A stretch of DNA of 64,000 nt, taken from assembly GCA_019116245.1 (NCBI GenBank), contig DXCC01000017.1:152245-216244 (forward strand), in the 5' to 3' direction. A program made the position numbers and the translations under genes. Positions 3,994 to 39,241 of the stretch are shown here, piece after piece. The notes beneath the pieces were generated by a model. The model did not search any database. It saw nothing but the letters and a program-made list of their open reading frames with translations, and had not been told where the DNA came from. The DNA is from Candidatus Tidjanibacter faecipullorum (GTDB lineage: Bacteria > Bacteroidota > Bacteroidia > Bacteroidales > Rikenellaceae). The first letter of the stretch is position 1. Every line of letters starts with the position of its first letter.

Positions 3994-6636
3994 TTAGTTC
4001 TTGCTGTTCTCCGAGGAGAGTACGGTGATCGTACCCGTGCCTTTGAGGTCAGCGATACCGGGAACGGTGATCGTTACGATCGACTCGGCCGTCAGGTTGT
4101 TGACGAGGAGTGCACCGCCGTTGTCCCAGGTTACCGTGTCGTCGCTCAGCGTCAGGTAGCTGCCGAACTCCGGACCGAACTCGATGTCGTAGTTGAAGGT
4201 GATGCCGGACGTTGCGTCGAGGTTGTAAACCTGTTTAGCGTATGCCGTGAAGGCCTCGTTCTCGTATACTACATTGCCATCGATGTCGCGGATCACTACC
4301 AGCGGTGCGATCTCTGCGCTGTCGCCGAGGTTGGTCGTCTTCAGCGTGATCGGGTCGATCGACATGGCGAACGGGTTGAAGAAGCGTACGGTGTAGGCTA
4401 CCACGCAGCTCTCCTGGCCGTTGGCGCGCGGGATGACGAGACGGACTTTGTAGTCGCGGCTAGCTTCGCCTACCTTGAAGGTCTCGGTGAGCTGGATCTC
4501 CTGCGTCTTGTAGTCGCCCGTGCTGGTTACGGTTGCACCAACCTGTCCTACCGGGTAGAGTTCGAAGAACATGCCGGCCTGGTCGTGGTTGCCCGATACG
4601 GTGTAGTCGGCGAGGTAGTTGGTGAAGTGTTCGGCCATCGTGCTGTGCAGTTCATAGGTCGTACCAACCAGTTTGCCTTTCACACCTACCGTATTGGCGG
4701 CGATCAGGTAGTTGTCGCTCAGCGTAGGCAGCTTGCAGTTGTCTACAACGGCGAAGTTCACCGTGATGATGACGTTCTTGTCCTGCATGTTGTCTTTAGC
4801 CGTGTAGGTGATGACAATCTTCTTGGCTGCGCCGTTGTTTACCAGAACCTGGTTGGTGACGTTGATCGTCAGCGGCTCGGTCGTGGTCTCCACCTCGGAC
4901 AGCGGGTCGTTGATGACGCTTACACCCGGCATAGCCACGATGTCGTTGGTCGGCTCGTTGTAACGCTCGGCGAATTCCTTCATGTCGATGTCAAGCTCGT
5001 TGAGAATCTTCGAGTTGAAGTCTTCCCATGCGTAAACGTAGTTGTTGCCGGTTGCCGCATTGATGGTGGTGTACTCGATGTTGCCGAGGTTCCAGACAAT
5101 ATTGAAGTCACCCTGCGGTTCCTGTGCATTCTTCGTGATCTTCACCTTGATGTAGCAGGAGGCGATTTCACGGCCTGCAACCTGCGAGCTGACTTTGAAG
5201 ATCGGCGTACGGTTGATGGCTGCCGAGCCGTACTCGTCGCTTACCTTGACGGTGCTGCCGTCGAGCGTTACGAATACCTGCTGGTTGGTCTCGTCCGAAC
5301 CCAGGTAGGTGGCCGGTTTCGAGAATACGTACTCCGGTTCAACACCGATGGTGCTCAGCAGATCCTGCAGCTCGGTCTCCTCGTAGGTCTCTACGAGCGT
5401 CAGCAGGTCGAGTTCGCCGGTGTAGAGCAGCGTAGCGTCGTAAACGGCTGCATCATTGGCAGGTACGGTCGTGCTGTATTTCTCGACGTCACCATCCTCG
5501 TCCCATGCGATCTTGTCGATGATGGCAAAGTCTTTCAGGTCGGTTTTCTTCACAACGGCATAGTCGGAAACGATCTCGGACTCGCCGTTGTAGGCACGCA
5601 GAGCAACGATGGCCTCTTTGTTGGCCTTGTTCAGTGCATCCAGCTTGTCACCGTCCTTGAGTACAACGTCGAATGTCAGACCACCCTGGTTGTCGCTGAC
5701 CGGTTCGCCCTCGATATCCAGCAGGTCGGTTGCGTCACCGGCTACACGCGTGGTGACACTGCGGTCGATGAACGACCACTTGATGTCCGATACCTTGGCG
5801 TTGTTCGGATTGAGGCGGTAGGTTGCCTTTGCGTTGTTGGAGAGTACGACACCGGCGTTGTCCCAAATCGAATAGAAGTCGATTGCGCCCATGCCGAGTT
5901 CGGACTCGATGATGGAGGGAACGAATGCCAGCGACTGGAGCGCGCCGAAAAGCTGGATCTGTACCGGCTCCTCGGAACCGTCCACGTTGTTCAGTACGAG
6001 GTAGCCGTTCTCGGCATCCCAAATGGCCGTTACAGTGCCTTCGGGGAAGCGGTACCAGTTCTCGCTCGTAACCTCGCGGATCGGTTCGCTGCCGTCGGCG
6101 GGTTCCGTTACTTTAACCCAGTAGCCATCTTCGTCGCCTTCTACACCAGGTTCATAGTAAACCTTGTCGGCATCCTGTCCATTGGAGCCAGGAGTTCCAG
6201 GAGTTCCGGGATCGCCCTGATCACCTTTGTCGCCCTGGTCACCCTTGTCGCCTTTCTCGCCGCGCGAGGGTTTGCCGGTGTCGACACCGTCGATGACCCA
6301 GTTGCCGTTCTTGCCGATCTCAACTACGGAACCGGGCTGGCCTGCTGCGCCGGTGTCACCCTTGTCGCCCTTGGCACCGTCCTGACCGTTGGTCAGCTCG
6401 AACGTCTTGCCGTTGCTGAGCGTAACTTTCACACCGTTGGCGGTGGATTCAACGTTGGTGATGACTGCACCTCCGCTGATCTGTGCTTTCAGTTCGTTGA
6501 GCGATTTCTCAACGGCTGTAATGCGGTCGTCCAGACCGGCAATGTCTCCGTCGTAGTTTTTGCACGACGTGAACATCCCCGTGGAGCTGGACATCAGCGC
6601 TCCGCACAGGATTAAATTCAGAAATTTTTTGTTCAT
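3994..6636 (-). CDS. Large surface lipoprotein with N-terminal coiled coil, collagen-like Gly-X-Y repeats and beta-rich C-terminal domains (PL29-lyase-N-terminal-domain-like Bacteroidales family)
   Basis: 880 aa; MNKKFLNLILCGALMSSSTGMFTSCKNYDGDIAG lipoprotein signal; GQDGAKGDKGDTGAAGQPG and GEKGDKGDQGDKGDQGDPGTPGTPG repeats. Confidence 0.88.
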   Translation of the reverse strand: MNKKFLNLILCGALMSSSTGMFTSCKNYDGDIAGLDDRITAVEKSLNELKAQISGGAVITNVESTANGVKVTLSNGKTFELTNGQDGAKGDKGDTGAAGQPGSVVEIGKNGNWVIDGVDTGKPSRGEKGDKGDQGDKGDQGDPGTPGTPGSNGQDADKVYYEPGVEGDEDGYWVKVTEPADGSEPIREVTSENWYRFPEGTVTAIWDAENGYLVLNNVDGSEEPVQIQLFGALQSLAFVPSIIESELGMGAIDFYSIWDNAGVVLSNNAKATYRLNPNNAKVSDIKWSFIDRSVTTRVAGDATDLLDIEGEPVSDNQGGLTFDVVLKDGDKLDALNKANKEAIVALRAYNGESEIVSDYAVVKKTDLKDFAIIDKIAWDEDGDVEKYSTTVPANDAAVYDATLLYTGELDLLTLVETYEETELQDLLSTIGVEPEYVFSKPATYLGSDETNQQVFVTLDGSTVKVSDEYGSAAINRTPIFKVSSQVAGREIASCYIKVKITKNAQEPQGDFNIVWNLGNIEYTTINAATGNNYVYAWEDFNSKILNELDIDMKEFAERYNEPTNDIVAMPGVSVINDPLSEVETTTEPLTINVTNQVLVNNGAAKKIVITYTAKDNMQDKNVIITVNFAVVDNCKLPTLSDNYLIAANTVGVKGKLVGTTYELHSTMAEHFTNYLADYTVSGNHDQAGMFFELYPVGQVGATVTSTGDYKTQEIQLTETFKVGEASRDYKVRLVIPRANGQESCVVAYTVRFFNPFAMSIDPITLKTTNLGDSAEIAPLVVIRDIDGNVVYENEAFTAYAKQVYNLDATSGITFNYDIEFGPEFGSYLTLSDDTVTWDNGGALLVNNLTAESIVTITVPGIADLKGTGTITVLSSENSKN

Positions 6637-6725
6637 GATACAAAAAGTTTAAAAAAAGTACTGCTTACTAAACCTTGTCAAACCTGAATGAATCTTGTTC
6701 CGTATAATATCTGTAAACCTTGGTC

Positions 6726-6747
6726 CCGTTACTTTATAGGTAACGGC
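6726..6747. repeat. Left inverted-repeat recombination site (IRL)
   Basis: CCGTTACTTTATAGGTAACGGC; exact reverse complement of 8043-8064. Confidence 0.92.
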
Positions 6748-6910
6748 GCCCCGTGGCCGGCGCAAATCGGTTTCGGCAGCGCGACAAGCGGAGGTGAAGG
6801 CGTCCGAAGATGTTTTTTGGCGGGCTGAAACGGGTATTTTGACCCGTGCGGATCGTACAGGCACATGGCAGGATAGTCCGGCACCCGAGGCGGGGCGGAC
6901 AGACGAAGGC

Positions 6911-6950
6911 AGGTATCCCGTCCGGCGGGATACCTTTATAATATTATAAA
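6911..6950. terminator. Hairpin (AGGTATCCCG/CGGGATACCT) abutting a perfect 16-bp AT palindrome TTTATAATATTATAAA
   Basis: Direct reading; located just downstream of the recombinase stop codon. Confidence 0.45.
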
Positions 6951-6978
6951 TCCGTCCTGTGGACGGTGCGGCCGGTGG

Positions 6979-7950
6979 CTACGAGGAGCGTCGGAAGGCT
7001 CGTCGGGCAGCGTGCCGGTCGGGAAGGCCCTGCCGTTGGACGAAAGCGATCACTTCGCGGTTGGCGGCGTCGATCCGTTCGTTGCGGAAGGGCTTGAGGT
7101 AGGTCTCCGTGACGGCAATGGAAGAGTGTCCCATCGCTTCGGAGATGATACCCGGATGGACTTCGCAGTAGTAGGCCATGGTTGCCCACGTGTGACGGGC
7201 CGTATAGGTGCTGAGCGCCGTGTCGCAGCCCAGCCGGAGCCGCAGCACGGCCAGGTGGCGGTTGAGGCGGCGCAGGGCGGCCTGGTATTCGCGGTAGGCC
7301 GCTTCGGAGCCTTCCGGACTGCTCAGGAACGGGAACAGGTAGGGTGAGCGGCTGTCGCGGTTGGCCAGCCGCCCGATGAGCTGCCGGGCTTCCGGAGTCA
7401 GCCGTACGGTGAGCGGCCTTCCCGTCTTGCGCCGGCGGTAGCGGATGGTGTCGCCCGTCAGGTCGCCTTTGCGCAGGTAGGCCATATCGACGAAGGGCAT
7501 GCCGCGCAACAGAAACATGAGGCGGAAAAGGTCGCGCGCCTGTTGCAGGGCGGCGTCCGACATCCGGCCGTCGGCGTGGAGGAGTGTGCCGATCTCGCCG
7601 GTCTCCATGGCTTTCTTGCGCTCGGTGTGCACGGCGGTCTGAACGTGGCGGAACAGCCGCGGCGCATAGGGGGCGAGCCCCTGGTCGATGGCGCGGTTGT
7701 AGATGGCCCGCAAAACCTTCATATAGGTAGAAACCGTATTCCAGCTGCATTGGCGGCGTCGGAGATCGTTCTCGAACGCCTTGACGACGGATGCGTCGAA
7801 ATCGGCGAAGGCGATGTCCTTCCCCTGGCGGAACCGGCGGAAGGCGTTGCCTGCGCTGTGATAGACGTGGGCGGTACCCCACTGACCGTTGCCGCGCATT
7901 TCCTGTACGGCGGATGCGATCATTTCCAGTAACATCTGATCCTTGTTCAT
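6979..7950 (-). CDS. Tyrosine-type site-specific recombinase (invertase/integrase family)
   Basis: 323 aa; N-terminal SAM-like core-binding region (AFENDLRRRQCSWNTVSTYMKVLRAIYNRA), catalytic LLRGMPFVDMAYLRKGDL, YTARHTWATMAYYCEVHPGIISEAMGHSSIAVTETYLKPF (R, Y/HxxR, GHSS, Tyr). Lies wholly inside the inverted repeats. Confidence 0.93.
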   Translation of the reverse strand: MNKDQMLLEMIASAVQEMRGNGQWGTAHVYHSAGNAFRRFRQGKDIAFADFDASVVKAFENDLRRRQCSWNTVSTYMKVLRAIYNRAIDQGLAPYAPRLFRHVQTAVHTERKKAMETGEIGTLLHADGRMSDAALQQARDLFRLMFLLRGMPFVDMAYLRKGDLTGDTIRYRRRKTGRPLTVRLTPEARQLIGRLANRDSRSPYLFPFLSSPEGSEAAYREYQAALRRLNRHLAVLRLRLGCDTALSTYTARHTWATMAYYCEVHPGIISEAMGHSSIAVTETYLKPFRNERIDAANREVIAFVQRQGLPDRHAARRAFRRSS

Positions 7951-7999
7951 GATGGAGGGGGTTTTGTCTTGTCTCTTTTATGAAAAAAAGTAAGGCGAT

Positions 8000-8031
8000 T
8001 TTGTACGGGGAGAAAAAAACGATTATATTTG
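8000..8031 (+). promoter_or_regulatory. Bacteroidota consensus promoter inside the invertible segment, facing outward (right)
   Basis: TTTG (8000-8003) - 20 nt - TATATTTG (8024-8031). Confidence 0.75.
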
Positions 8032-8039
8032 CCGTAACA

Positions 8040-8076
8040 AATGCCGTTACCTATAAAGTAACGGCATTCTTTTTTT
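8040..8076 (+). terminator. Terminator-like hairpin built from the right recombination site plus external T-tract
   Basis: AATGCCGTTAC (8040-8050), loop CTATAAA, GTAACGGCATT (8058-8068), then CTTTTTTT (8069-8076). Confidence 0.6.
8043..8064. repeat. Right inverted-repeat recombination site (IRR)
   Basis: GCCGTTACCTATAAAGTAACGG; reverse complement of 6726-6747. The copy sits in an 11-bp dyad AATGCCGTTAC-CTATAAA-GTAACGGCATT (8040-8068). Confidence 0.92.
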
Positions 8077-8255
8077 CTCTGAATCAGGCACATGCGACGC
8101 CCGTGCCGGCATCGACCATGGTGCCGGAGTGGCAGTTGCCCGCCCGTTGTCGTTGTTCCCGGACCGTTCCGATCCATGCTTTCCCGACGCGCGAAATCGC
8201 CTGGCGGGACCGTGATTATGTGCCCCGTCAAAAGAACATGTTTGAAAAAAATTAC

Positions 8256-8263
8256 TATTTTTG
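8256..8263 (+). promoter_or_regulatory. Possible native -7 element for the PorV-like gene
   Basis: TATTTTTG matches TAnnTTTG; no well-spaced -33 TTTG found. Confidence 0.4.
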
Positions 8264-8329
8264 CCTAACTATGACTTTAAATGGGTATAGGACAACGTAA
8301 AACTAATATTATAATTTAAATCTTTGACT

Positions 8330-9328
8330 ATGATCAAAAAGAGCTTACTCGCGACCCTCTTTGCAACCTTGTGCTGCAGTGTCGCTACCACCGCGTTCGC
8401 TCAGGAAGAGCCGCTCCAGGGCGTCGGTCCGTCGCTCCTGAACAGCGCCAATCCCCGTGCGGCCGGTATGGGTATGGCTACCACGGCTGTCAGCGACAAC
8501 GCGTTCGGCATCTTCGGCAATGCTGCCGTCAACCTCTCCAGCGAGAAGAGAATGGGCTTCGGTTACTCCTACAATCCGGTTATGCCCGAGTTCTCGAAGG
8601 GACAGACGACCCATGCCGTAGGCGGTTACTTCAACATCGACAAGAACAACGGCCTCTCGATAGGTTTCCGTTACTATACCGGTGACGAGATGGCGCTGGC
8701 CGGTGGTGACAACACGGCACTCGGTAACGTACGCGCCGGCGATATGGCCATCAGCCTTGCCTATACGCGCCGCATCGTGGACAACTTCTCCATGTCGCTC
8801 ACCGCTCGCTACATCAACACGAACTACAACAAACCCGTCGAGGGCTTCAAGGCAGGCAATGCCGTAGCATTCGACCTCGGTTTCTATTACTACAACAAGA
8901 TCGAGTCGTTCTTCGGTTCCAAATGGGCCGTTGGTCTGAATGTCAGCAACTTCGGTACGAAGCTCGACGTGGCGACGATCTCCAATCCCGGTACGATGCC
9001 CGCTTACGCCAATTTGGGCGGTTCGATCGACATGCCGTTCTCCGAAAACCACAAACTGCTTGCTGCCCTTGACCTCGGCTACACCTTCATGCCGTCGACC
9101 GATGCAGCTTTCGCAGCCGGTTTCGGTCTGGAGTACAACTTCCTGAAATACGGTATCATCCGCGCCGGTTACCACTACGGTGACGAGAAGGCGATCGGTG
9201 GCAGCTACGCAACCTTCGGTCTCGGTGTGAAGGCCGGTCCGGTTCGCGTGGACGCTTCCTACTGGCTGGCCGGTTCCGACAGCCCTGTGAAGAACACCTG
9301 GGCCGTAGGTGTCAGCGTATTCTTCTAA
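8330..9328 (+). CDS. PorV/PorQ-family outer-membrane beta-barrel protein
   Basis: Signal peptide MIKKSLLATLFATLCCSVATTAFAQ; GVGPSLLNSANPRAAGMGMATTAVSDNAFGIFGNAAVNLS..., ends in VGVSVFF typical of outer-membrane barrels. Confidence 0.85.
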   Translation: MIKKSLLATLFATLCCSVATTAFAQEEPLQGVGPSLLNSANPRAAGMGMATTAVSDNAFGIFGNAAVNLSSEKRMGFGYSYNPVMPEFSKGQTTHAVGGYFNIDKNNGLSIGFRYYTGDEMALAGGDNTALGNVRAGDMAISLAYTRRIVDNFSMSLTARYINTNYNKPVEGFKAGNAVAFDLGFYYYNKIESFFGSKWAVGLNVSNFGTKLDVATISNPGTMPAYANLGGSIDMPFSENHKLLAALDLGYTFMPSTDAAFAAGFGLEYNFLKYGIIRAGYHYGDEKAIGGSYATFGLGVKAGPVRVDASYWLAGSDSPVKNTWAVGVSVFF

Positions 9329-10458: not shown

Positions 10459-11170
10459 TGAATGTGCGTTTGATAAAGTTGATGAATGGGGTTTGTTTGC
10501 CGGTTCGGGCGAGCCACAGGCCGAGTGCGAAGAGGAGTGCCGCCGTCCCGCACAGGGCGCCCAGCGCCCCCCAGGCCACGGTGGACTGGGCGTCGGAGGT
10601 GTTGTAGTCGGCCACGGTGGCATTGACCAGCAGGCCGATGAAGAGGATGCCCATGTTGAGCAGGATCTTGAGTTCGAGTTTCATGCTCTCGCGGCGGATG
10701 AGCGTGTGGATGACCCATGCGGTCAGCAGGACGGCGGCGAAGATGAGCGCCGCATAGAGGGCTGCCGTGGCGCGGAAGTCGGCGCCGACCCGCTCCCGGA
10801 AGAAGAGCAGCTCGAAATAGGCCACGCCGAGCATCCACAGCACGCCCGGCACGACCTTCAGCACGAAGATGCGCCGACGGCGCTGGGCGCGAGGCTTGAA
10901 ATAGTTGTCGAGCAGGTAGATCGAGGTGAAGATGCCGAGTGTCGCCTCCAGGGTGGTCAGCACCGCGCCGTCGGTGACCAGGCGCCGGTCGGCCAGCAGG
11001 CCGGCGACGATGGTGACCGGCCGGGTGATGACTGCCGGATAGAGTACCAGCGCCACGACGGCCGCGACGGCGGCGTAGGCAGCCATGACCCAAAGGCGAC
11101 CCGTCATGGCCGCCTTCAGGCAGTATTTGGCCAGCGCGAGGACGAAAATAACCTGAATGTAGTGTTCCAT
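10442..11170 (-). CDS. hmuT: Multi-pass membrane protein of heme operon (HmuT-like)
   Basis: MEHYIQVIFVLALAKYCLKAAMTGRLWVMAAYAAVAAVVALVLYPAVITRP...; TAATG-coupled to hmuS and 17-nt overlap with hmuU. Confidence 0.72.
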   Translation of the reverse strand: MEHYIQVIFVLALAKYCLKAAMTGRLWVMAAYAAVAAVVALVLYPAVITRPVTIVAGLLADRRLVTDGAVLTTLEATLGIFTSIYLLDNYFKPRAQRRRRIFVLKVVPGVLWMLGVAYFELLFFRERVGADFRATAALYAALIFAAVLLTAWVIHTLIRRESMKLELKILLNMGILFIGLLVNATVADYNTSDAQSTVAWGALGALCGTAALLFALGLWLARTGKQTPFINFIKRTFNGSDH

Positions 11171-14100
11171 TATCGATTCTGTTTGCGGCGTACGATCAGC
11201 CATGCGGCAATGGCGGCGACGAGGATGCCGATGACCCAGAGGACGGTGTAGTCGCGGGTCGGGGCGTTCGCTTCGCGCCGGTCTTCGTGCCGGCGGTCAC
11301 GCGTCTGCTCCTCCTTCTTCAGCACGACGTTCCGGTCGGTCTGCTCCTCGATCTGTACCTGTCTGGCCGCGTCGATGTTCCGGTTGTAGGCCTCGGCCGC
11401 CGGTTGGTCCACCTTCGAGGCGATGAAGGCACGCAGCTTGGCGTTGTCGCAGACAAAGCCGCTGCAGCCGGCCGCATGTTCGGCCACCAGGCGGGTGTGG
11501 AGTGCGGCCACCTGCCGGAGCTGGGCGTCGGATGCCTGCCACATGCCCTTGCGTCCCGCTTCGAGCATGACGGCCGTCATCTCCTGCAGGACGTAGGGAT
11601 TCTTTTCGGTTAAGGTCTGTTCCAGTCCCAGACCGTAGGCATCCTCGATATAGACGTCGTAGTATTTGTTCCAGATGTGCTGGTCGATGGCCGAGGGTTT
11701 CATGGCGTTCCAGCCGAAGGTGTTGCGGAATGTTTCGGCGAAGGTCTCCATCGAGCTGGCCTCGCCCTTCATCATTTCGCGGATGTACTTCGGGTTGAAG
11801 ATCGTCGAGTTGCTCTCCACGCCGATCGCCTCCTTGAGTCCCTGCACCTTGGGGCGTCCCGTATTGCGGAAGTCGTTGAAGTAGGCGGTCGGGTCGTTGC
11901 CCGTGACATGCTGCACGGCGGCCGAAAGCCCGCCCATGAATTCATAGACGTGGTCGAGGCTCAGCGGCCCCCAGGTGTTGCTCGAACGGGGCTGCACCAC
12001 GACGGAGGTGTTCAGCAGCGCCGCCTCGAACACCCCTTCGCGGGTCTCGCCCCATGCGGCGGAGCCGTTGGCCGAGTAGAGGCCGCTCATGTTGGCGATG
12101 TACCGTTCGGCGATCTGGTCGGCCGACTCCCAGCTGTCACCCTTTTCGACCATGCCCATGATGCCCGTGCCGTAGTTGCCGTTCACACCGCCGAAGATGC
12201 GCTCACCGGCATAGCGGCGGGCGTCGGCCGGCGAGAAGCCTTTGGCCAGCAGCAGCCGTTCGGCATCCTCGAATCCCTTGCGGACAAAGTTTTCGTGGGC
12301 GTCGTCACGTGCTTCGGCAGCCATGGCGATGGCTCGGTTGATAAGTTCCAGACGCGAGGCGGCGATGTCGCGCAGCTGGCCGGAGGTCTGCACCACCACG
12401 TCCACGCGCGGCCGGCCGAGCTGTTCGGAGGGGATCAGCCGCAGCGAGCGGATCTGGCCGAAGCCGTCGCGCATCGGTTCCACGCCCAGCAGGTAGAAGA
12501 TTTGGGCAATGGTCGCCCCTTCGCTGGAGATGAAGTCCGACGACCAGAGCGTGAAGCTCACCTTCTTGGGGTAGCGGCCGTTGGTCTCCATTTCGGCGGC
12601 GAGCAGTTCCTCGGCCAGCCGTTTGCCCACCTTCCAGGCTTCGGGCGAGGGGGTGGTTTCGGGGTTGATCGCGTAGAAGTTGCGTCCGGTCGGCACGGCC
12701 TGCGGATTGACGATCGGGTCGCCTGCCGAGGAGGGCGCCACGTAACCTCCGTTCAGGGCATTGAGCAGCCCTTCGGCTTCGGCGCGGGTGCTGTTGCGCA
12801 GGTTGTCGCAGGAGGTCTTCACACCCCGCAGGGCATCGCGCAGCGTGCGCACGGCCGCGGCAATGCGCTCCTCGCGCCGCTCCTCGCTGCCGGCATCCAC
12901 TCCGGCCGGTGCAGCCTGCTCCATGCGCTCCATGACGGTCATCTCGCCGGCCGTCTGCGGTGCAGCTGCCTCGTCGGCCGGTGCGGGAATGATCTTGCCG
13001 TGTTCGTCGAGGAAGCGGGGCAGCTGCTTTCGGGGTGCCTCCGCCATGGCCTGCATCATGCGGGCCGTCGCCTCCTGCCGGGCCCGCTCGGCGGCTTCGG
13101 CCTGTTCGAGCAGGCCTATCTCGTCGGCCGGGACGAGCTGGCGGAGCAGCCGGTCGGGATCCTCGCCGGCCAGGGCGCGGCGGATCACCTCCTCGGTGCG
13201 GTCGCCGTAGCGGTGGCTGATGAAGACGAGGTTGTCGAGCTGCTCTTCACGGATGAGGCCGCGGGCGGCGTCGAGGTCGGCCAGCGCGTAGCGGATCGGG
13301 TCGATGCTCATCAGGCGTGCCGTATTGCGCAGGTTTTCCTCGCTGTAGGGAACCCCCAGCGTGTAGAGGCCGTCATTGACCTTGGCGCCGTTGATCTCCT
13401 CGATGTACATGTGGATCCGGTCGATGTCGGCATCGGTCAGCGTGCGGGTCGAGTCGATGCCGAGTGCCGAAAGGATGTTCTGACGGCGGGAGAGTTCGGT
13501 GATCGTCTCGCGGTAGTTCTGTTTCACGCTGCTCTCCTCCATGCCTTCAAAGCGGTGGATGCGCTCCTGCAGGATCCGGAAGTCGTCGTAGAGTTCGCCC
13601 TGCATGAAGGGGGCGGTGAGGTGGGTGACCAGCGTGGCATAGGTACGCCGCTTGGCGATGATGCCCTCGCCGATGTTGTTGATCGTGTAGAGGTAGAAGT
13701 GGGGCATGTCGCCGACCAGCACGTCGCTCCAGTCGTAGTCCGAGAGGGCCACCTGTTTGCCGGGAATGAACTCCAGACTGCCGTGCGTGCCGAAGTGGAT
13801 CAGCGCGTCGGCGCCGAAAGCCTTGCGCGTCCACAGGTAGGAGGCCACGTAGGGGTAGGCCGGTGCGCCCGCCACGCCGTGTACGATCTTGTCCGTCTCC
13901 TCACCCACGGCCGGTAGCGGCTGGGGCAGGATCGTTACGTTGCCGAACCGGAGGCGTGCTACGGCGATATAGCGGCGGCCGTCGCGCTCGACGCCCATGT
14001 AGTCGCCCGGAGCGGGACCGTACTGACGTTCCAGGTCGGCGATGAGTTGTTCGGGCAGGATCTCGTGCGCCCACTCGGAGAAAGTTTCCACATCCACGAG

Positions 14101-15423
14101 GGCGGGATCGCCGTGTTTCAGGAACTCGTCATAGGCCCCCAGCGCATAGGGTCCCAATACGGCGCCCTGCCGTTGGATCATGGCCTCCAGCGCGGCGGCG
14201 TCGGTCGGCAGCCCCGTGAGGTCATACCCCGCATCGCGCAGCGTGCAGAGCGTGTTGTAGAGCGACTGCACGCCTTCGAGGTCGGCAGCCGAAACGGCCC
14301 CCTTGCCCGTACCCTTGTAATAATAGATGGCGACCTTCTTCTCCGCGTTGGGCAGGGTGCGCAGACGGGCGAAGTTGGCCACCATGTCGCAGAAGCGTTC
14401 CGTATGGCAGGGGATGGCGTCGAAGAGTTTCATGCCGTTGCGGTCGAACTGGGCGGCCACCGCGAAGGGGGCGATCGCACCGTCCAGCTCGGGCATCACG
14501 ACGCTCATGGCGGTCATGCCGCCCGAGGCCATGCCCTGACGGTCGATGAGCCACCTTTCGTAGAGGTCGCTGACGGTCACCGGCGCCAGCAGCGGGGCGT
14601 TGAGCTGCCGGAGCAGTTCCGTGCCGCTCTCGCCGCCGCCCATCACCAGCCGGCCGTGGGGGCGGTTAATGATTACGTCGGGATGCACGGCCGCGATCAT
14701 GCCCAGCTTTTTCATGCCGAACGAGCTGATCGGATAGACGTTGAGTCCCTTCGCTTCGAGCGATTCGATCAGCGCGGCCATGTGTTCCTCGTTGGAGTTC
14801 TGCATGTTGATGTTGCCCGACAGCAGCGCCACGCGCGGCGCCCCTTCGCGGTAGCGTCCCGAGGCCTCGTAGAAGCGCTGGTAGTCGTCGTAGGTGGCGA
14901 AGAACTCGTCCTCGCCCAGATGGAAGTAGTAGTCCGAGGGGACTTCGACGGGTTCCCCGTACGGGCCGTTGAAGAAGGCCTTGCGGTCGATGCGGGCGCG
15001 GATGTAGTTCAGCAGGCTGCGGTAGTTGCGCACCGAGCCGTTCTCCATCAGTGCATCGATGTAGGCCAGTTCGCGTCCCGTGAGGGTGTTGATCTCGGCG
15101 TTGTCGCTCTCGGTGGCATAGACCGGCACCCCTTTGGCGATGGCGCGGCGAATGGCGTCGAAGTGGCTCTTGTCGAGCGAGTTGCCGTGGATGCGTACCA
15201 GTACCATGTCGTAGGAGGCGATCCGTTCCGCCCGGTCCAGCGCCACCGCCCGGATCCGGATGTGGGGATTGTCGTTCGAACGGATCAGCTTCTCGACCGT
15301 GAAGTCGGGGAAGTTGAGCGTGGCGATGCGCGTGGGGGCCATCCAGCGGCCGTAGCACCACAGCAGGACGGCGAGCAGGGCCACCGCCGCGCACGACCAC
15401 ACGATCAGTTGCTTGTGTTTCAT
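11170..15423 (-). CDS. hmuS: Membrane-anchored CobN/Mg-chelatase-H-like protein (HmuS-like)
   Basis: 1417 aa; N-terminal TM, CobN-type chelatase sequence (HFGTHGSLEFIPGKQVALS, GVNGNYGTGIMGMVEKGDSWES), C-terminal TM WVIGILVAAIAAWLIV. Confidence 0.9.
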   Translation of the reverse strand: MKHKQLIVWSCAAVALLAVLLWCYGRWMAPTRIATLNFPDFTVEKLIRSNDNPHIRIRAVALDRAERIASYDMVLVRIHGNSLDKSHFDAIRRAIAKGVPVYATESDNAEINTLTGRELAYIDALMENGSVRNYRSLLNYIRARIDRKAFFNGPYGEPVEVPSDYYFHLGEDEFFATYDDYQRFYEASGRYREGAPRVALLSGNINMQNSNEEHMAALIESLEAKGLNVYPISSFGMKKLGMIAAVHPDVIINRPHGRLVMGGGESGTELLRQLNAPLLAPVTVSDLYERWLIDRQGMASGGMTAMSVVMPELDGAIAPFAVAAQFDRNGMKLFDAIPCHTERFCDMVANFARLRTLPNAEKKVAIYYYKGTGKGAVSAADLEGVQSLYNTLCTLRDAGYDLTGLPTDAAALEAMIQRQGAVLGPYALGAYDEFLKHGDPALVDVETFSEWAHEILPEQLIADLERQYGPAPGDYMGVERDGRRYIAVARLRFGNVTILPQPLPAVGEETDKIVHGVAGAPAYPYVASYLWTRKAFGADALIHFGTHGSLEFIPGKQVALSDYDWSDVLVGDMPHFYLYTINNIGEGIIAKRRTYATLVTHLTAPFMQGELYDDFRILQERIHRFEGMEESSVKQNYRETITELSRRQNILSALGIDSTRTLTDADIDRIHMYIEEINGAKVNDGLYTLGVPYSEENLRNTARLMSIDPIRYALADLDAARGLIREEQLDNLVFISHRYGDRTEEVIRRALAGEDPDRLLRQLVPADEIGLLEQAEAAERARQEATARMMQAMAEAPRKQLPRFLDEHGKIIPAPADEAAAPQTAGEMTVMERMEQAAPAGVDAGSEERREERIAAAVRTLRDALRGVKTSCDNLRNSTRAEAEGLLNALNGGYVAPSSAGDPIVNPQAVPTGRNFYAINPETTPSPEAWKVGKRLAEELLAAEMETNGRYPKKVSFTLWSSDFISSEGATIAQIFYLLGVEPMRDGFGQIRSLRLIPSEQLGRPRVDVVVQTSGQLRDIAASRLELINRAIAMAAEARDDAHENFVRKGFEDAERLLLAKGFSPADARRYAGERIFGGVNGNYGTGIMGMVEKGDSWESADQIAERYIANMSGLYSANGSAAWGETREGVFEAALLNTSVVVQPRSSNTWGPLSLDHVYEFMGGLSAAVQHVTGNDPTAYFNDFRNTGRPKVQGLKEAIGVESNSTIFNPKYIREMMKGEASSMETFAETFRNTFGWNAMKPSAIDQHIWNKYYDVYIEDAYGLGLEQTLTEKNPYVLQEMTAVMLEAGRKGMWQASDAQLRQVAALHTRLVAEHAAGCSGFVCDNAKLRAFIASKVDQPAAEAYNRNIDAARQVQIEEQTDRNVVLKKEEQTRDRRHEDRREANAPTRDYTVLWVIGILVAAIAAWLIVRRKQNR

Positions 15424-16154: not shown

Positions 16155-18314
16155 TTACTTGAATGCATAGCGGATGCCGATCAGGAAGGTTCGTCCCGGG
16201 TCGGTGAAGCTGGCGTCCTTGAAGTCGAAGAGGTTGTTTACCTTGAAGGTGGCCTCGAGGGTGTGCTTTTTGATGCGGAACGGCTTGACCAGCGTGATTT
16301 TCCAGATCGAATAGGGGTTGGACTGCGTTTTGGTGACGATCTCCGTGCCGGTCGAATCCGTGCCGACGGACTGGTAGAGGATCGGCGAGCTGACACGTCC
16401 CGAAATCTGGAGCGAGAAGGGGCTGCGGGCAATCTTGCCGTTCCATGTCAGCGAGGCCGTGCCGCTGTGGCGGACGTTGCTTTCGAGCTGCAGTCCGGTC
16501 GAGTTGTCCACCGCGTCGCAGAAGCTGTAGTTCAGCCGCAGGGTCAGCTGGCGCACGAAGAGCCAGGAGAGGCTCACGTCGAATCCCCGCAGGGTCGCGC
16601 TGCTGATGTTCCGGTAGTAGCGGCTCACCTCTTCGGTGCCGTTCACGTTCTGCGTGACGGTGTACTGGTCGATCTTGTTGTCGATGTTGTTGTAGTAGGC
16701 CGACAGGGAGGCGTTCAGCGTGCGGTAGGTGTATTCTGCCGAGAGGGAGGAGTAGAGTCCCCGTTCGGCTTTCAGGTCGGGGTTGCCGTACACCATGAAG
16801 CCTCCGCCGCCGGTGTGGTAGAAATCGTAGTAGAGTTCCTCGACGCTCGGCGCGCGGAAGGCGGTGCCGATGCCGCCGCGGAAGTTGAAGCCCGCCACGG
16901 AATACATGACCGAGAGTTTCGGGTTGAAGGAGGAGCCGAACGCGTCGTTGTAGGTGTAGCGGGCGCCCGCGATGATGTCCAGGTTCCGGATCGGGTCGTA
17001 CTCGGCCTGGGCAAAGAGATTGGCGTCCTGGATCGTCTTGGTGGTGGGGGCGTCGCCGAAGAGCGAGGCGGAGAAGATGTCCTCGTAGTTGTACTCCGCT
17101 CCGCCGGTCAGCTCCCACCGCTCGGCCGGACGGAAGGTGTCCAGCAGGCGGGCCGAGAGATAGCCGGCCGTCTTGTCGCGCTGATTCTCTCCCGTGGCGT
17201 CGATCACGTCATAGGCGAAGTATTTGTCGAAATTGACGCTCAGCCGCACGTTGTTGCGGTCGTCGGCCGAACGGTATCCGCCGTTGGCGCCGACGGTCAT
17301 CTTGTGGTCGAGGGTGTGGGTGATGTTCATCGTCCCCGGCAGGTTGAAAACCTCGTGACGGTAGTAGCGTCCCGTGAAGTTGAGGTCGCTGCGGCCGGTC
17401 GGGCGGTAACCGAAGTTGAGGTTGGCGCCGTAGTCGGTGTAGGGGTTGGAGGAGTTGCCGCCCGTGGCGCTGTTGTTGTAGCCGTCCGACGAGTTGCGGA
17501 ATACGCTGGCGCGGGTGATGAACCGTTCGAGATTCGATCCGACCTCTGCGCGGGTGCGCCAGGTGTTGTGGTTCTCCCAGGAGAGGTTGGCTCCGGCTTC
17601 GATGTCGTGGACGGGCTTCTTGGTGATGATGTTCACCACGGCACCGACGGCATTGGAGCCGTAGAGTGCCGACGAGGCGCCGTTGATCATCTCGACCCGT
17701 TCGATGTTGTTCACGTCCAGCTGGTCGAAGTTGATGTTGCCGCCCGCACCCTCGCTAACCATGCGCTCGCCGTCCACCAGGAAGAGGATGTAGCGGCTGC
17801 TGAGACCACGGATGCGCAGGTTGTTGCCCATCGCGTTGGAGGAGGAGACCAGGCCGGGGACATTGTCGGTCAGCACCTCCATCGTGCTGGTCGATCCGGC
17901 CCGCTGGATCTCCTGCGTGGTGATGACCGAGGTCAGCACGGGCGACTCGGCCAGCCGTTTGGGTGTGCGCGTACCCGTCACGACCACCTCGTCGAGATGG
18001 GTGACCTGTTCGGTGAGCCGGAAGTGGACAGTCGTGTCGCACCGCAGGTCGATCTCTTGCGTGACCATGGGGTAGGCCGAGTAGTACATCGTCTTGAGGG
18101 CGACATGGCCGGCCGGTACGTTCCGGAGCTGGAAGCGGCCGTTGTAGTCGCTCTGTGCGCCCCGCTTGTCATAGGTGATGAAGACGCCGGGGAGCGGTTC
18201 GCCGGTGACGGCGTCCGTGACCGTACCCGAAATGTCGTATGTCGGCGTCTGTGCCGCGAGTGGCGCCGAGAGAGTGGCCGCCAGCAGCAGACAGAAAAGC
18301 AGTTTTTTTTGCAT
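16155..18314 (-). CDS. hmuR: TonB-dependent outer-membrane receptor (HmuR-like)
   Basis: Carboxypeptidase-D-like repeat, plug TRTPKRLAESPVLTSVITTQEIQRAGSTSTMEVLTDNVPGL, barrel ending GRTFLIGIRYAFK. Confidence 0.92.
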   Translation of the reverse strand: MQKKLLFCLLLAATLSAPLAAQTPTYDISGTVTDAVTGEPLPGVFITYDKRGAQSDYNGRFQLRNVPAGHVALKTMYYSAYPMVTQEIDLRCDTTVHFRLTEQVTHLDEVVVTGTRTPKRLAESPVLTSVITTQEIQRAGSTSTMEVLTDNVPGLVSSSNAMGNNLRIRGLSSRYILFLVDGERMVSEGAGGNINFDQLDVNNIERVEMINGASSALYGSNAVGAVVNIITKKPVHDIEAGANLSWENHNTWRTRAEVGSNLERFITRASVFRNSSDGYNNSATGGNSSNPYTDYGANLNFGYRPTGRSDLNFTGRYYRHEVFNLPGTMNITHTLDHKMTVGANGGYRSADDRNNVRLSVNFDKYFAYDVIDATGENQRDKTAGYLSARLLDTFRPAERWELTGGAEYNYEDIFSASLFGDAPTTKTIQDANLFAQAEYDPIRNLDIIAGARYTYNDAFGSSFNPKLSVMYSVAGFNFRGGIGTAFRAPSVEELYYDFYHTGGGGFMVYGNPDLKAERGLYSSLSAEYTYRTLNASLSAYYNNIDNKIDQYTVTQNVNGTEEVSRYYRNISSATLRGFDVSLSWLFVRQLTLRLNYSFCDAVDNSTGLQLESNVRHSGTASLTWNGKIARSPFSLQISGRVSSPILYQSVGTDSTGTEIVTKTQSNPYSIWKITLVKPFRIKKHTLEATFKVNNLFDFKDASFTDPGRTFLIGIRYAFK

Positions 18315-18342
18315 GACGCTGATAGGTTGATTGAAACGGTGC

Positions 18343-18390
18343 AAAGGTAGCGGGTGCCCTGGCGGGCATCAATTCCCAGTTTTTGGGATA
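18343..18390 (-). promoter_or_regulatory. hmuR promoter plus adjacent dyad
   Basis: Minus strand TTG-N20-TACCTTTG; dyad TCCCA-GTTTT-TGGGA (18374-18388) immediately upstream of the -33 element. Confidence 0.55.
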
Positions 18391-18557: not shown

Positions 18558-19034
18558 ATGAAAAAAACGTTGAACGTCCGGATCGGGTCCGTGGCGTTTG
18601 TCCTCGATGAGGATGCCTACTATATGCTGCGTCACTACCTCGACGACGTGGAGGCGCGCTTCGAACCGGTGGAGGCCGCCGAAACGCTGAATGACCTGGA
18701 GATGCGGATTGCCGACATATTTACCGAGGAGCTCGCCTCGCCGCGTCAGGTGGTGGATGTCGAACTGGTGCGCAAGGCTATCTCCATTCTCGGCCGGGCC
18801 GACGAGTTTGGCGAACCGCGCGAGGGGCGGAGTGTGCCGCATGCCGACATCAAGCAGTTGCGCCGTTCGCGCCGCGACCGGATGATCGGAGGCGTGTGTG
18901 GCGGTCTGGCCGACTATTTCGGCATCGACGTGGCACTCGTGCGGCTGCTGATGTTCCTGCTGATCTTCTTCGGCGGCGTCAGCCTGTGGGTGTATATCAT
19001 TTTGTGGATCGTCATTCCCGCCGAACAGTGGTAG
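18558..19034 (+). CDS. PspC domain-containing protein
   Basis: RSRRDRMIGGVCGGLADYFGIDVALVRLLMFLLIFFGGVSLWVYIILWIVIPAEQW. Confidence 0.9.
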   Translation: MKKTLNVRIGSVAFVLDEDAYYMLRHYLDDVEARFEPVEAAETLNDLEMRIADIFTEELASPRQVVDVELVRKAISILGRADEFGEPREGRSVPHADIKQLRRSRRDRMIGGVCGGLADYFGIDVALVRLLMFLLIFFGGVSLWVYIILWIVIPAEQW

Positions 19035-19068
19035 TGGAACCGAACCGGAACCAAGCAAGGAGTCTGTT

Positions 19069-19317
19069 ATGGAAATCATGAACGATAACCGGAGTACGAA
19101 ACGGTTGTACCGGAGCAAGAACCGGATCATCGGCGGCGTCTGCCAGGGGCTGGCCGACTATTTCAATGTGGATGTGGTGCTGGTGCGCATCATTGCCCTG
19201 TTTGCCCTGTTCTGCCTGTCGGCGGGCTTCTGGGTCTATCTGGTGCTGTGGATCGTCGTGCCGGTGCAGCGGAGCCTGCCCTCGGGCGGCGGCCGCTATT
19301 ATGACGGAGGACGTTGA
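19069..19317 (+). CDS. Small PspC domain protein
   Basis: RLYRSKNRIIGGVCQGLADYFNVDVVLVRIIALFALFCLSAGFWVYLVLWIVVP. Confidence 0.9.
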   Translation: MEIMNDNRSTKRLYRSKNRIIGGVCQGLADYFNVDVVLVRIIALFALFCLSAGFWVYLVLWIVVPVQRSLPSGGGRYYDGGR

Positions 19318-19319
19318 CC

Positions 19320-19670
19320 ATGGAGACGATCAATGTCGATAACGCCAAGGCGCAGATGCGCAAGGGGATCCTGGAGTACTGCATCCTGCTGATTCTGTCA
19401 CGCGGCGATTCCTATGCGCCCCGCATCATCGCGGAGCTGAAGAACGCCCGCATGATCGTGGTGGAGGGAACCCTCTATCCGATTCTCACGCGGCAGAAGA
19501 ACCAGGGGCTGCTCTCCTACCGGTGGGAGGAGTCGCCGCAGGGGCCGCCCCGCAAATACTATTCGATTACGGACAAGGGCCGGGAGGCGCTGGCGCAGCT
19601 GGACGCTTCGTGGGACGAGCTGGTCGATCAGATCGACCGGATCCGCGGCCGCAAAAACGACGAGCAATGA
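19320..19670 (+). CDS. PadR family transcriptional regulator
   Basis: QMRKGILEYCILLILSRGDSYAPRIIAELKNARMIVVEGTLYPILTRQKNQGLLSYRWEESPQGPPRKYYSITDKGREAL. Confidence 0.95.
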   Translation: METINVDNAKAQMRKGILEYCILLILSRGDSYAPRIIAELKNARMIVVEGTLYPILTRQKNQGLLSYRWEESPQGPPRKYYSITDKGREALAQLDASWDELVDQIDRIRGRKNDEQ

Positions 19671-20887
19671 ACGAAGGGGTGAAAGTGAGCATTGCCGGCA
19701 TCGCCTTTCGGCTCGACGCCGGGGCTTACGAGGTGCTGAAGGCCTATCTCGACCGGTTGGAGGAGGGATATGCCAAACGGTCCGAGGGGCGCGAGATCAT
19801 CGCCGACATCGAGGCGCGCCTGGCGGAGCTGCTGCTCGACCGGCAGCCCGAGGAGCAGGTCGTGAGCGAGGCGCTGGCCCGCTCCGTCGTTGAACAGCTC
19901 GGTCTGCCGGACGATCTGGACGAGACCGAACCGGTGACGGGACGCATCCCCAAACGGTTACACCGCAATCCGGATGGCGCCCTGCTCGGTGGAGTATGTT
20001 CGGGCATTGCTGCCTATTTCCATATCGACACGGTGTGGGTGCGGCTGGGATTCTTCCTGCCGCTGTTCCTGCTGATCCTGTGTACGGCCCTCGGGCTGGA
20101 CGGTGACGTGGAGGATTTCTTCGCCATTCTGTTCGGTCTGTGCGTGCTGCTCTATCCGGTGCTGTGGATCATCGTGCCGATGGCGCGCACGCCCCGTCAG
20201 AAACTAGAGATGTCCGGCCGGCGGGTCACCGCCTCGGCCATCCGCCAGTCGTTCGAGCAGGACGCTTCCGCCATGCCCTCCTCGCCACGCCGCCAGCGGG
20301 CGGCCGGGGTGTGGGCCGACCTCTTCTACGGCCTGGGACGCGTACTGCTTGTCCTGCTGAAGGTCATCGTCTTCTGTGCGCTGCTTGCGCTGGGAGCCAT
20401 CATCGTGGGATGTCTGGTGTGCATCGTCATCCTGCTGAGCAGCAGCGAGCTGTTCGGATTCGGTTATCTGCAGGAGGCACTGCAGGGTATGGTAGGCATC
20501 ACGCCGGTGCTCTACGTCATCCTGTTGCTCGTGGCCGTGCTGCTTCCGCTCGTGCTGCTGGGTTACTTCCTGATCTGTCTGCTACTCGGCCGTTCGTGCA
20601 ACCGGACCTTCATGACGGTTCTTGGGGTGCTTTGGATCCTGCTGGCCGTCTATCTGTCGGTCGTCTCGCTGCGGAATGGCGATACGCTGCGCGAGGCGCC
20701 GTTCCGGATGGAGGAGCGTTGGGAACGTGACCGGGGCCGCTGGGAGGACGCCTGGGAGGAGCGTTGGGAAGAACGCTGGGACGAGCGCCGGGAACCGGTC
20801 GGACCGGGAGCGCCGCAATGGCGGGAGATCCGTTCCGACAAGCCGGGCCCCGCACCGGCGGCTGACCGTAACCTATTGTTGAACTGA
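19667..20887 (+). CDS. PspC domain-containing membrane protein with charged W/E/R-rich tail
   Basis: PspC motif LGGVCSGIAAYFHIDTVWVRLGFF; N-terminal domain similar to 18558 gene product; 4-nt overlap with padR. Confidence 0.88.
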   Translation: MNEGVKVSIAGIAFRLDAGAYEVLKAYLDRLEEGYAKRSEGREIIADIEARLAELLLDRQPEEQVVSEALARSVVEQLGLPDDLDETEPVTGRIPKRLHRNPDGALLGGVCSGIAAYFHIDTVWVRLGFFLPLFLLILCTALGLDGDVEDFFAILFGLCVLLYPVLWIIVPMARTPRQKLEMSGRRVTASAIRQSFEQDASAMPSSPRRQRAAGVWADLFYGLGRVLLVLLKVIVFCALLALGAIIVGCLVCIVILLSSSELFGFGYLQEALQGMVGITPVLYVILLLVAVLLPLVLLGYFLICLLLGRSCNRTFMTVLGVLWILLAVYLSVVSLRNGDTLREAPFRMEERWERDRGRWEDAWEERWEERWDERREPVGPGAPQWREIRSDKPGPAPAADRNLLLN

Positions 20888-39188: not shown

Positions 39189-39241
39189 AAGCAAAAACAG
39201 AGGGGACGAACCCACACGGTTCGTCCCCTCTGTTTTTGCTT
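39189..39241. terminator. Bidirectional terminator between convergent genes
   Basis: AAGCAAAAACAGAGGGGACGAACC-CACAC-GGTTCGTCCCCTCTGTTTTTGCTT, 24-bp perfect stem with A/T flanks on both sides. Confidence 0.9.

Follow-up and report, generated by a model that had tools for sequence, protein, structure and literature searches.

The Hin/fljBA switch of Salmonella carries a recombinase gene and an outward-facing promoter inside an invertible segment and turns a surface protein ON or OFF. Hin is a serine recombinase that acts at hix sites with a Fis enhancer. The Tidjanibacter locus described here resembles this switch in layout alone, as the recombinases are unrelated in protein and in chemistry.

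Invertons of the BT1927 type, found at S-layer loci of Bacteroides thetaiotaomicron, have a published site consensus, CCGTTACCTABVRAGTAAC (PMC12118408). The Bacteroides BT1927 S-layer/CPS invertons share with our locus this consensus, a homologous recombinase and an outward Bacteroidota promoter. In both, the promoter lies inside the segment and its target (a surface lipoprotein or capsule in Bacteroides, a putative surface lipoprotein here) lies outside. The typical Bacteroides layout places the recombinase gene beside a segment of ~270–300 bp, whereas the Tidjanibacter cassette holds it inside a segment of 1.34 kb.

There is precedent in the pneumococcal psrA for a tyrosine invertase encoded inside its own invertible segment, the hsdS inverton (PMC12324116). 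That system shuffles coding sequence between hsdS genes, has several repeat pairs and lacks an invertible promoter; no hsdS ORF was found on either side of the cassette, whose repeats are intergenic. An intrinsic terminator that forms where the repeat is joined accounts for the OFF state of cwpV in Clostridioides difficile (PMC2784873). The cwpV promoter lies outside a 195-bp segment and RecV is not encoded inside it, whereas the cassette has an internal promoter and a T-run in the fixed flank. The gene for Tsr19 (BF2766) of Bacteroides fragilis sits beside a local promoter, and its product acts on a distant one as well (PMC4747536). Tsr19 is likewise a tyrosine recombinase, and inverts surface-gene promoters, but differs in that the cassette's genome has a single site pair. 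In a limited text search, with early key papers outside its range, no account emerged from Bacteroidota of a tyrosine recombinase gene enclosed in an invertible promoter segment.

Organization of the cassette

The following features were identified in the window (the whole 64-kb stretch of DNA that was analyzed):

3994–6636, minus strand: candidate switched target, a lipoprotein gene (880 aa, DUF4988 and collagen-like Gly-X-Y repeats) that the promoter would face after inversion
6637–6725, minus strand: 5' leader of the lipoprotein gene, from start codon to left repeat
6726–6747, minus strand: left recombination site, an exact copy of the 22-bp repeat at the lipoprotein-side junction, without a T-run
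6979–7950, minus strand: tyrosine recombinase, probable invertase (323 aa), inside the invertible segment
8000–8031, plus strand: outward promoter, TTTG-N20-TATATTTG, an exact consensus match ending 11 bases before the right repeat
8040–8075, plus strand: predicted intrinsic terminator, comprising the site dyad (8040–8068; 11-bp stem, 7-nt loop) and then a T-run outside the repeat
8043–8064, plus strand: right recombination site, the exact reverse complement of the left
8330–9328, plus strand: PorV/PorQ-family outer-membrane protein gene (PF19572, NF033709), the conserved OFF-side neighbor and synteny anchor

Two 22-bp inverted repeats enclose one tyrosine recombinase gene and an outward promoter. 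The original prediction had placed the repeats at 6726–6747 and 8043–8064, and these coordinates are correct: the arms are exact and the copies reverse complementary. Each site consists of the dyad arms CCGTTAC and GTAACGG around a 7-bp asymmetric spacer. Dinucleotide-shuffled sequences yielded no match to such a pair, even with three mismatches allowed. Local hairpins aside, no other inverted repeat in the 64-kb window has 16 or more exact bases with its arms within 3 kb, and in the whole 1.86-Mb genome the dyad motif is confined to these two places, as one repeat pair. Because CCGTTACCTATAAAGTAAC fits the published BT1927/S-layer consensus, the cassette is, as judged from its sequence, a member of that inverton family with a variant layout and not a typical one. 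An Rfam scan of window positions 6000–9000 returned no match.

The promoter elements, TTTG at 8000 and TATATTTG at 8024–8031 separated by 20 bases, are exactly as first described and are conserved in six cassettes. In an alignment of these six, TTTG and TTAT(A/G)TTTGC are invariant and lie at the 5' end of the recombinase gene, just inside the repeat.

The enclosed recombinase

The recombinase ORF is intact and complete, with matches to Phage_int_SAM_5 (PF13102, E = 1e-18) and Phage_integrase (PF00589, E = 2e-9), and so has a SAM-like N-terminal domain and a catalytic domain of the tyrosine-recombinase type. The reading of a tyrosine in place of a serine recombinase in a Hin-like layout, as originally proposed, is correct, and both the recombinase gene and the outward promoter are seen within the segment, which is oppositely oriented at sister-species loci. 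Equivalog models for XerC, XerD and XerA match only far below their cut-offs, and the only solved structure detected is a single weak XerC-like match. The catalytic-type residues R149, K175, R252, H275 and Y284 are kept across 78 relatives; Y249, which replaces the usual histidine of the HxxR motif throughout the family, is conserved as well. PADLOC gave no match to the recombinase or the lipoprotein.

The co-location of the recombinase with its sites, and the uniqueness of that site pair in the genome, argue strongly that the encoded enzyme is the invertase. More distant homologs exist in the same genome, one of which could act in trans. A trans-acting master invertase serving many sites was rejected, the whole genome having one site pair.

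Between the recombinase stop codon and the left repeat, at window positions 6920–6966, we also noted two hairpins, GGTATCCCG...CGGGATACC and a small one that resembles a terminator. They could be the recombinase terminator.

Related cassettes in other lineages

Inverted repeats flank or adjoin the recombinase gene in most relatives, and two layouts predominate. In about 20 loci from Tidjanibacter, Bacteroides, Mediterranea, Odoribacter and Muribaculaceae, the repeats enclose the recombinase gene; in most Bacteroides and Phocaeicola loci, the gene is followed by a 230–300-bp segment between the repeats. Three further loci show the upstream site only, two of them at a contig break (L030 and L031) and one with no downstream partner found (L041). 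Bacteroides recombinases beside such repeats are 44–60% identical to that of the cassette, and all fall in one tree, on which the layouts cluster (4 label changes, versus ~20–24 with shuffled labels). The adjacent layout inverts too, as two loci in one genome (L063 and L069) are opposite. In a survey of exact core sites, pairs in Bacteroidaceae were mostly 280–580 bp apart (with one at ~1 kb and one at ~1.5 kb) and few sites were found elsewhere in the order, so the enclosed form is a minority. Inverton surveys restricted to short intergenic segments could miss such gene-containing cassettes.

All 16 enclosed loci with a single target have, on one flank, an outward-reading lipoprotein gene with an SC(K/D)(D/N)YD-type N-terminus. 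DUF4988 was present in 6 of the 10 relatives scanned, several with collagen repeats; the only solved structures matching the window's lipoprotein are collagen peptides. The lipoprotein is predicted to have a surface role. The S-layer/capsule inverton family of Bacteroides is extended to Tidjanibacter, Odoribacter and Muribaculaceae and tied to collagen-like DUF4988 lipoproteins. The promoter is in the OFF orientation, pointing away from the lipoprotein gene, in 14 of the 16 single-target loci, some of which could be locked. Four near-identical contigs from a viral collection (L100–L103) all have the same orientation, which has no bearing on inversion of the present cassette.

In Bacteroides oleiciplenus YIT 12058 (L023), identical 3.2-kb inverted copies of a gene for a 964-aa lipoprotein flank the cassette. 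These copies may stem from a duplication of very recent date or be an artifact of assembling mixed orientations, and the locus was left out of the evidence.

Predicted OFF and ON states

We propose, with a probability of roughly 85%, that the locus is a self-contained phase-variation switch in which the enclosed recombinase flips the 1.34-kb promoter segment and thereby toggles the lipoprotein. The recombinase would act on the two core sites, which are identical and inverted, and recombination between them would flip the segment. All flipping parts appear to travel together, making the cassette a compact switch of one gene, two sites and one promoter.

Two points were missed by the original prediction. 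In the window the cassette is OFF for the lipoprotein gene, which has no promoter-like match of its own upstream; the cassette promoter points right, away from that gene. In addition, the right recombination site, into which this promoter runs directly, forms with its flank a predicted terminator opposing it. A transcript from the single strong outward promoter would meet the right site ~10 nt past its predicted start, where the dyad, flank bases and T-run are predicted to terminate it. The OFF RNA fits the terminator pattern (−15.0 kcal/mol, z = −7.4). With the transcript ending here, as predicted, neither expression of the lipoprotein nor read-through into the PorV-family gene would occur.

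After inversion, the same promoter would face left, toward the lipoprotein gene. The predicted ON RNA forms a 7-bp stem without a T-run (−9.1 kcal/mol), and since the left junction is this shorter dyad, transcription would continue into the lipoprotein gene. The leader (6637–6725) contains no match to TTTG-N18–21-TAnnTTTG, so no promoter-like sequence of the gene's own was found upstream. It is a strong inference that cassette inversion controls whether the lipoprotein is ON or OFF. Once the cassette is ON, the flank with the T-run would follow the recombinase gene, whose mRNA it may terminate instead.

The T-run is biased toward one side across the enclosed loci. Of the 16 single-target loci, 12 carry a T-run (five or more T in a stretch of eight bases) on their non-target flank, compared with 1 of 16 on the target flank (Wilcoxon p = 0.001, for loci that are related to one another), and the dyad on the non-target flank is usually extended and then followed by T's. 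The bias is absent in two loci (L062 and L074) and tied in a third (L033). Adjacent-layout Bacteroides loci mostly have no T-run; two Muribaculaceae loci (L034 and L036) have one.

An alternative is that the segment flips, but that its promoter mainly serves the PorV-family gene, or that both neighbors alternate. The window promoter does point toward the PorV-family gene, and in three loci (L028, L037 and L039) the cassette lies between two different, divergently oriented lipoprotein genes, which have a common leader and/or N-terminus and differ in their downstream parts. A flip at these three loci would select one lipoprotein or the other. In the window, however, the predicted terminator separates the promoter from the PorV-family gene, which has promoter-like bases of its own directly upstream (near 8240–8266, as read by eye), and the T-run stays on the non-lipoprotein flank in other Tidjanibacter and also in Bacteroides, whose neighbor at this place is not PorV. 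We regard this alternative as unlikely, and the PorV-family gene is probably not switched.

Under the preferred reading, with the lipoprotein gene as the switched target, these features further suggest that the crossover sites double as OFF-state terminators. The dyad would serve as the hairpin and the fixed flank would supply the T-run, so that one flip would move the promoter, end the OFF transcript and, in the ON state, stop the recombinase mRNA, allowing the invertase to control itself according to orientation; at loci with a lipoprotein gene on both sides, the cassette would be an either/or selector. This scheme as a whole is tentative, and we give it somewhat less than even odds; a terminator role for the site and feedback on the invertase are plausible. 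The cassette offers a clean system for studying recombinase regulation when flipping alters the recombinase's own genomic context.

Orientation of the cassette among Tidjanibacter species

We surveyed 23 Tidjanibacter genomes and detected the repeat in 5, each time flanking a close recombinase homolog. The enclosing repeats are kept in all five genomes with such a homolog (60–100% identity), and every locus lies between a DUF4988-type lipoprotein gene and a PorV-family gene. The four loci other than the window retain 71–90% identity in the PorV neighbor and 57–80% in the lipoprotein N-terminus. The relatives of the window genome within the genus include Candidatus Tidjanibacter gallistercoris (Rikenellaceae).

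With the lipoprotein–PorV axis as the reference, the window, L003 and L027 have the cassette OFF, and L021 and L022 have it ON; in these last two, the lipoprotein ortholog lies directly downstream of the promoter. The segments align best once recombinase orientation is matched. In the window, the lipoprotein leader adjoins the 3' end of the recombinase gene, and GGCATTCTTTTTTTC adjoins the promoter end. In L021, whose leader is 72% identical to that of the window, it is the leader (...AAACTTTTTGTATCATGAA) that meets the promoter end, with GGCATTATTTTTTG at the recombinase 3' end. The comparison of relatives suggested with the original prediction, made here between species, thus finds orthologous loci in opposite orientations with their junctions swapped. 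We have high confidence in the cassette anatomy and in the inversion between species; the opposite orientations across five genomes imply that the cassette inverts on evolutionary time. Promoter activity, terminator activity and switching within a strain are what we infer from sequence.

The five orientations come from different species rather than isolates of one strain, as would also be expected if the switch were a fossil that inverted in the past, has since settled in one orientation per species and retains a recombinase with another job. The 22-bp sites are nevertheless still identical within each of four species, with a one-position difference in the fifth, while the recombinase ORF is intact with its catalytic-type residues conserved and the promoter elements are preserved. 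A fossil is unlikely, and a slightly poorer candidate than a switch acting on PorV or on both neighbors.

A lone recombinase ORF within perfect inverted repeats also resembles a minimal transposable unit, in which the repeats would be terminal inverted repeats and the recombinase would move the unit elsewhere. This origin is improbable, and more so than a fossil: the cassette is present in one copy per genome, occupies the same locus in five Tidjanibacter species, neighbors a similar type of lipoprotein gene in other families and flips at a fixed place, and its repeats are dyad crossover sites common to Bacteroides invertible promoters. Neither multiple or displaced copies nor flanking repeats indicative of target duplication were found, which disfavors an insertion sequence or transposon.

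Least probable of all is that the repeats serve solely to terminate transcription in both directions and are not recombination sites, for although the right copy has the form of an intrinsic terminator, the left has no T-run, two terminators would not need an identical asymmetric 7-bp spacer, the sister-species segment is inverted exactly at the repeats and the same motif flanks invertible promoters elsewhere.

Other features of the window

A perfect 24-bp hairpin with a 5-nt loop, likely intergenic and possibly a strong terminator, lies at 39189–39241. By eye, we also noted a cluster of small ORFs at 18558–20887, with repeated segments (67 nt, 75% alike) and products that resemble PspC-domain proteins, beside a PadR-like regulator. 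An ORF of 1417 aa at 11170–15423 resembles a CobN/magnesium-chelatase-type protein and lies near a TonB-dependent receptor gene at 16155–18344 (both by eye).
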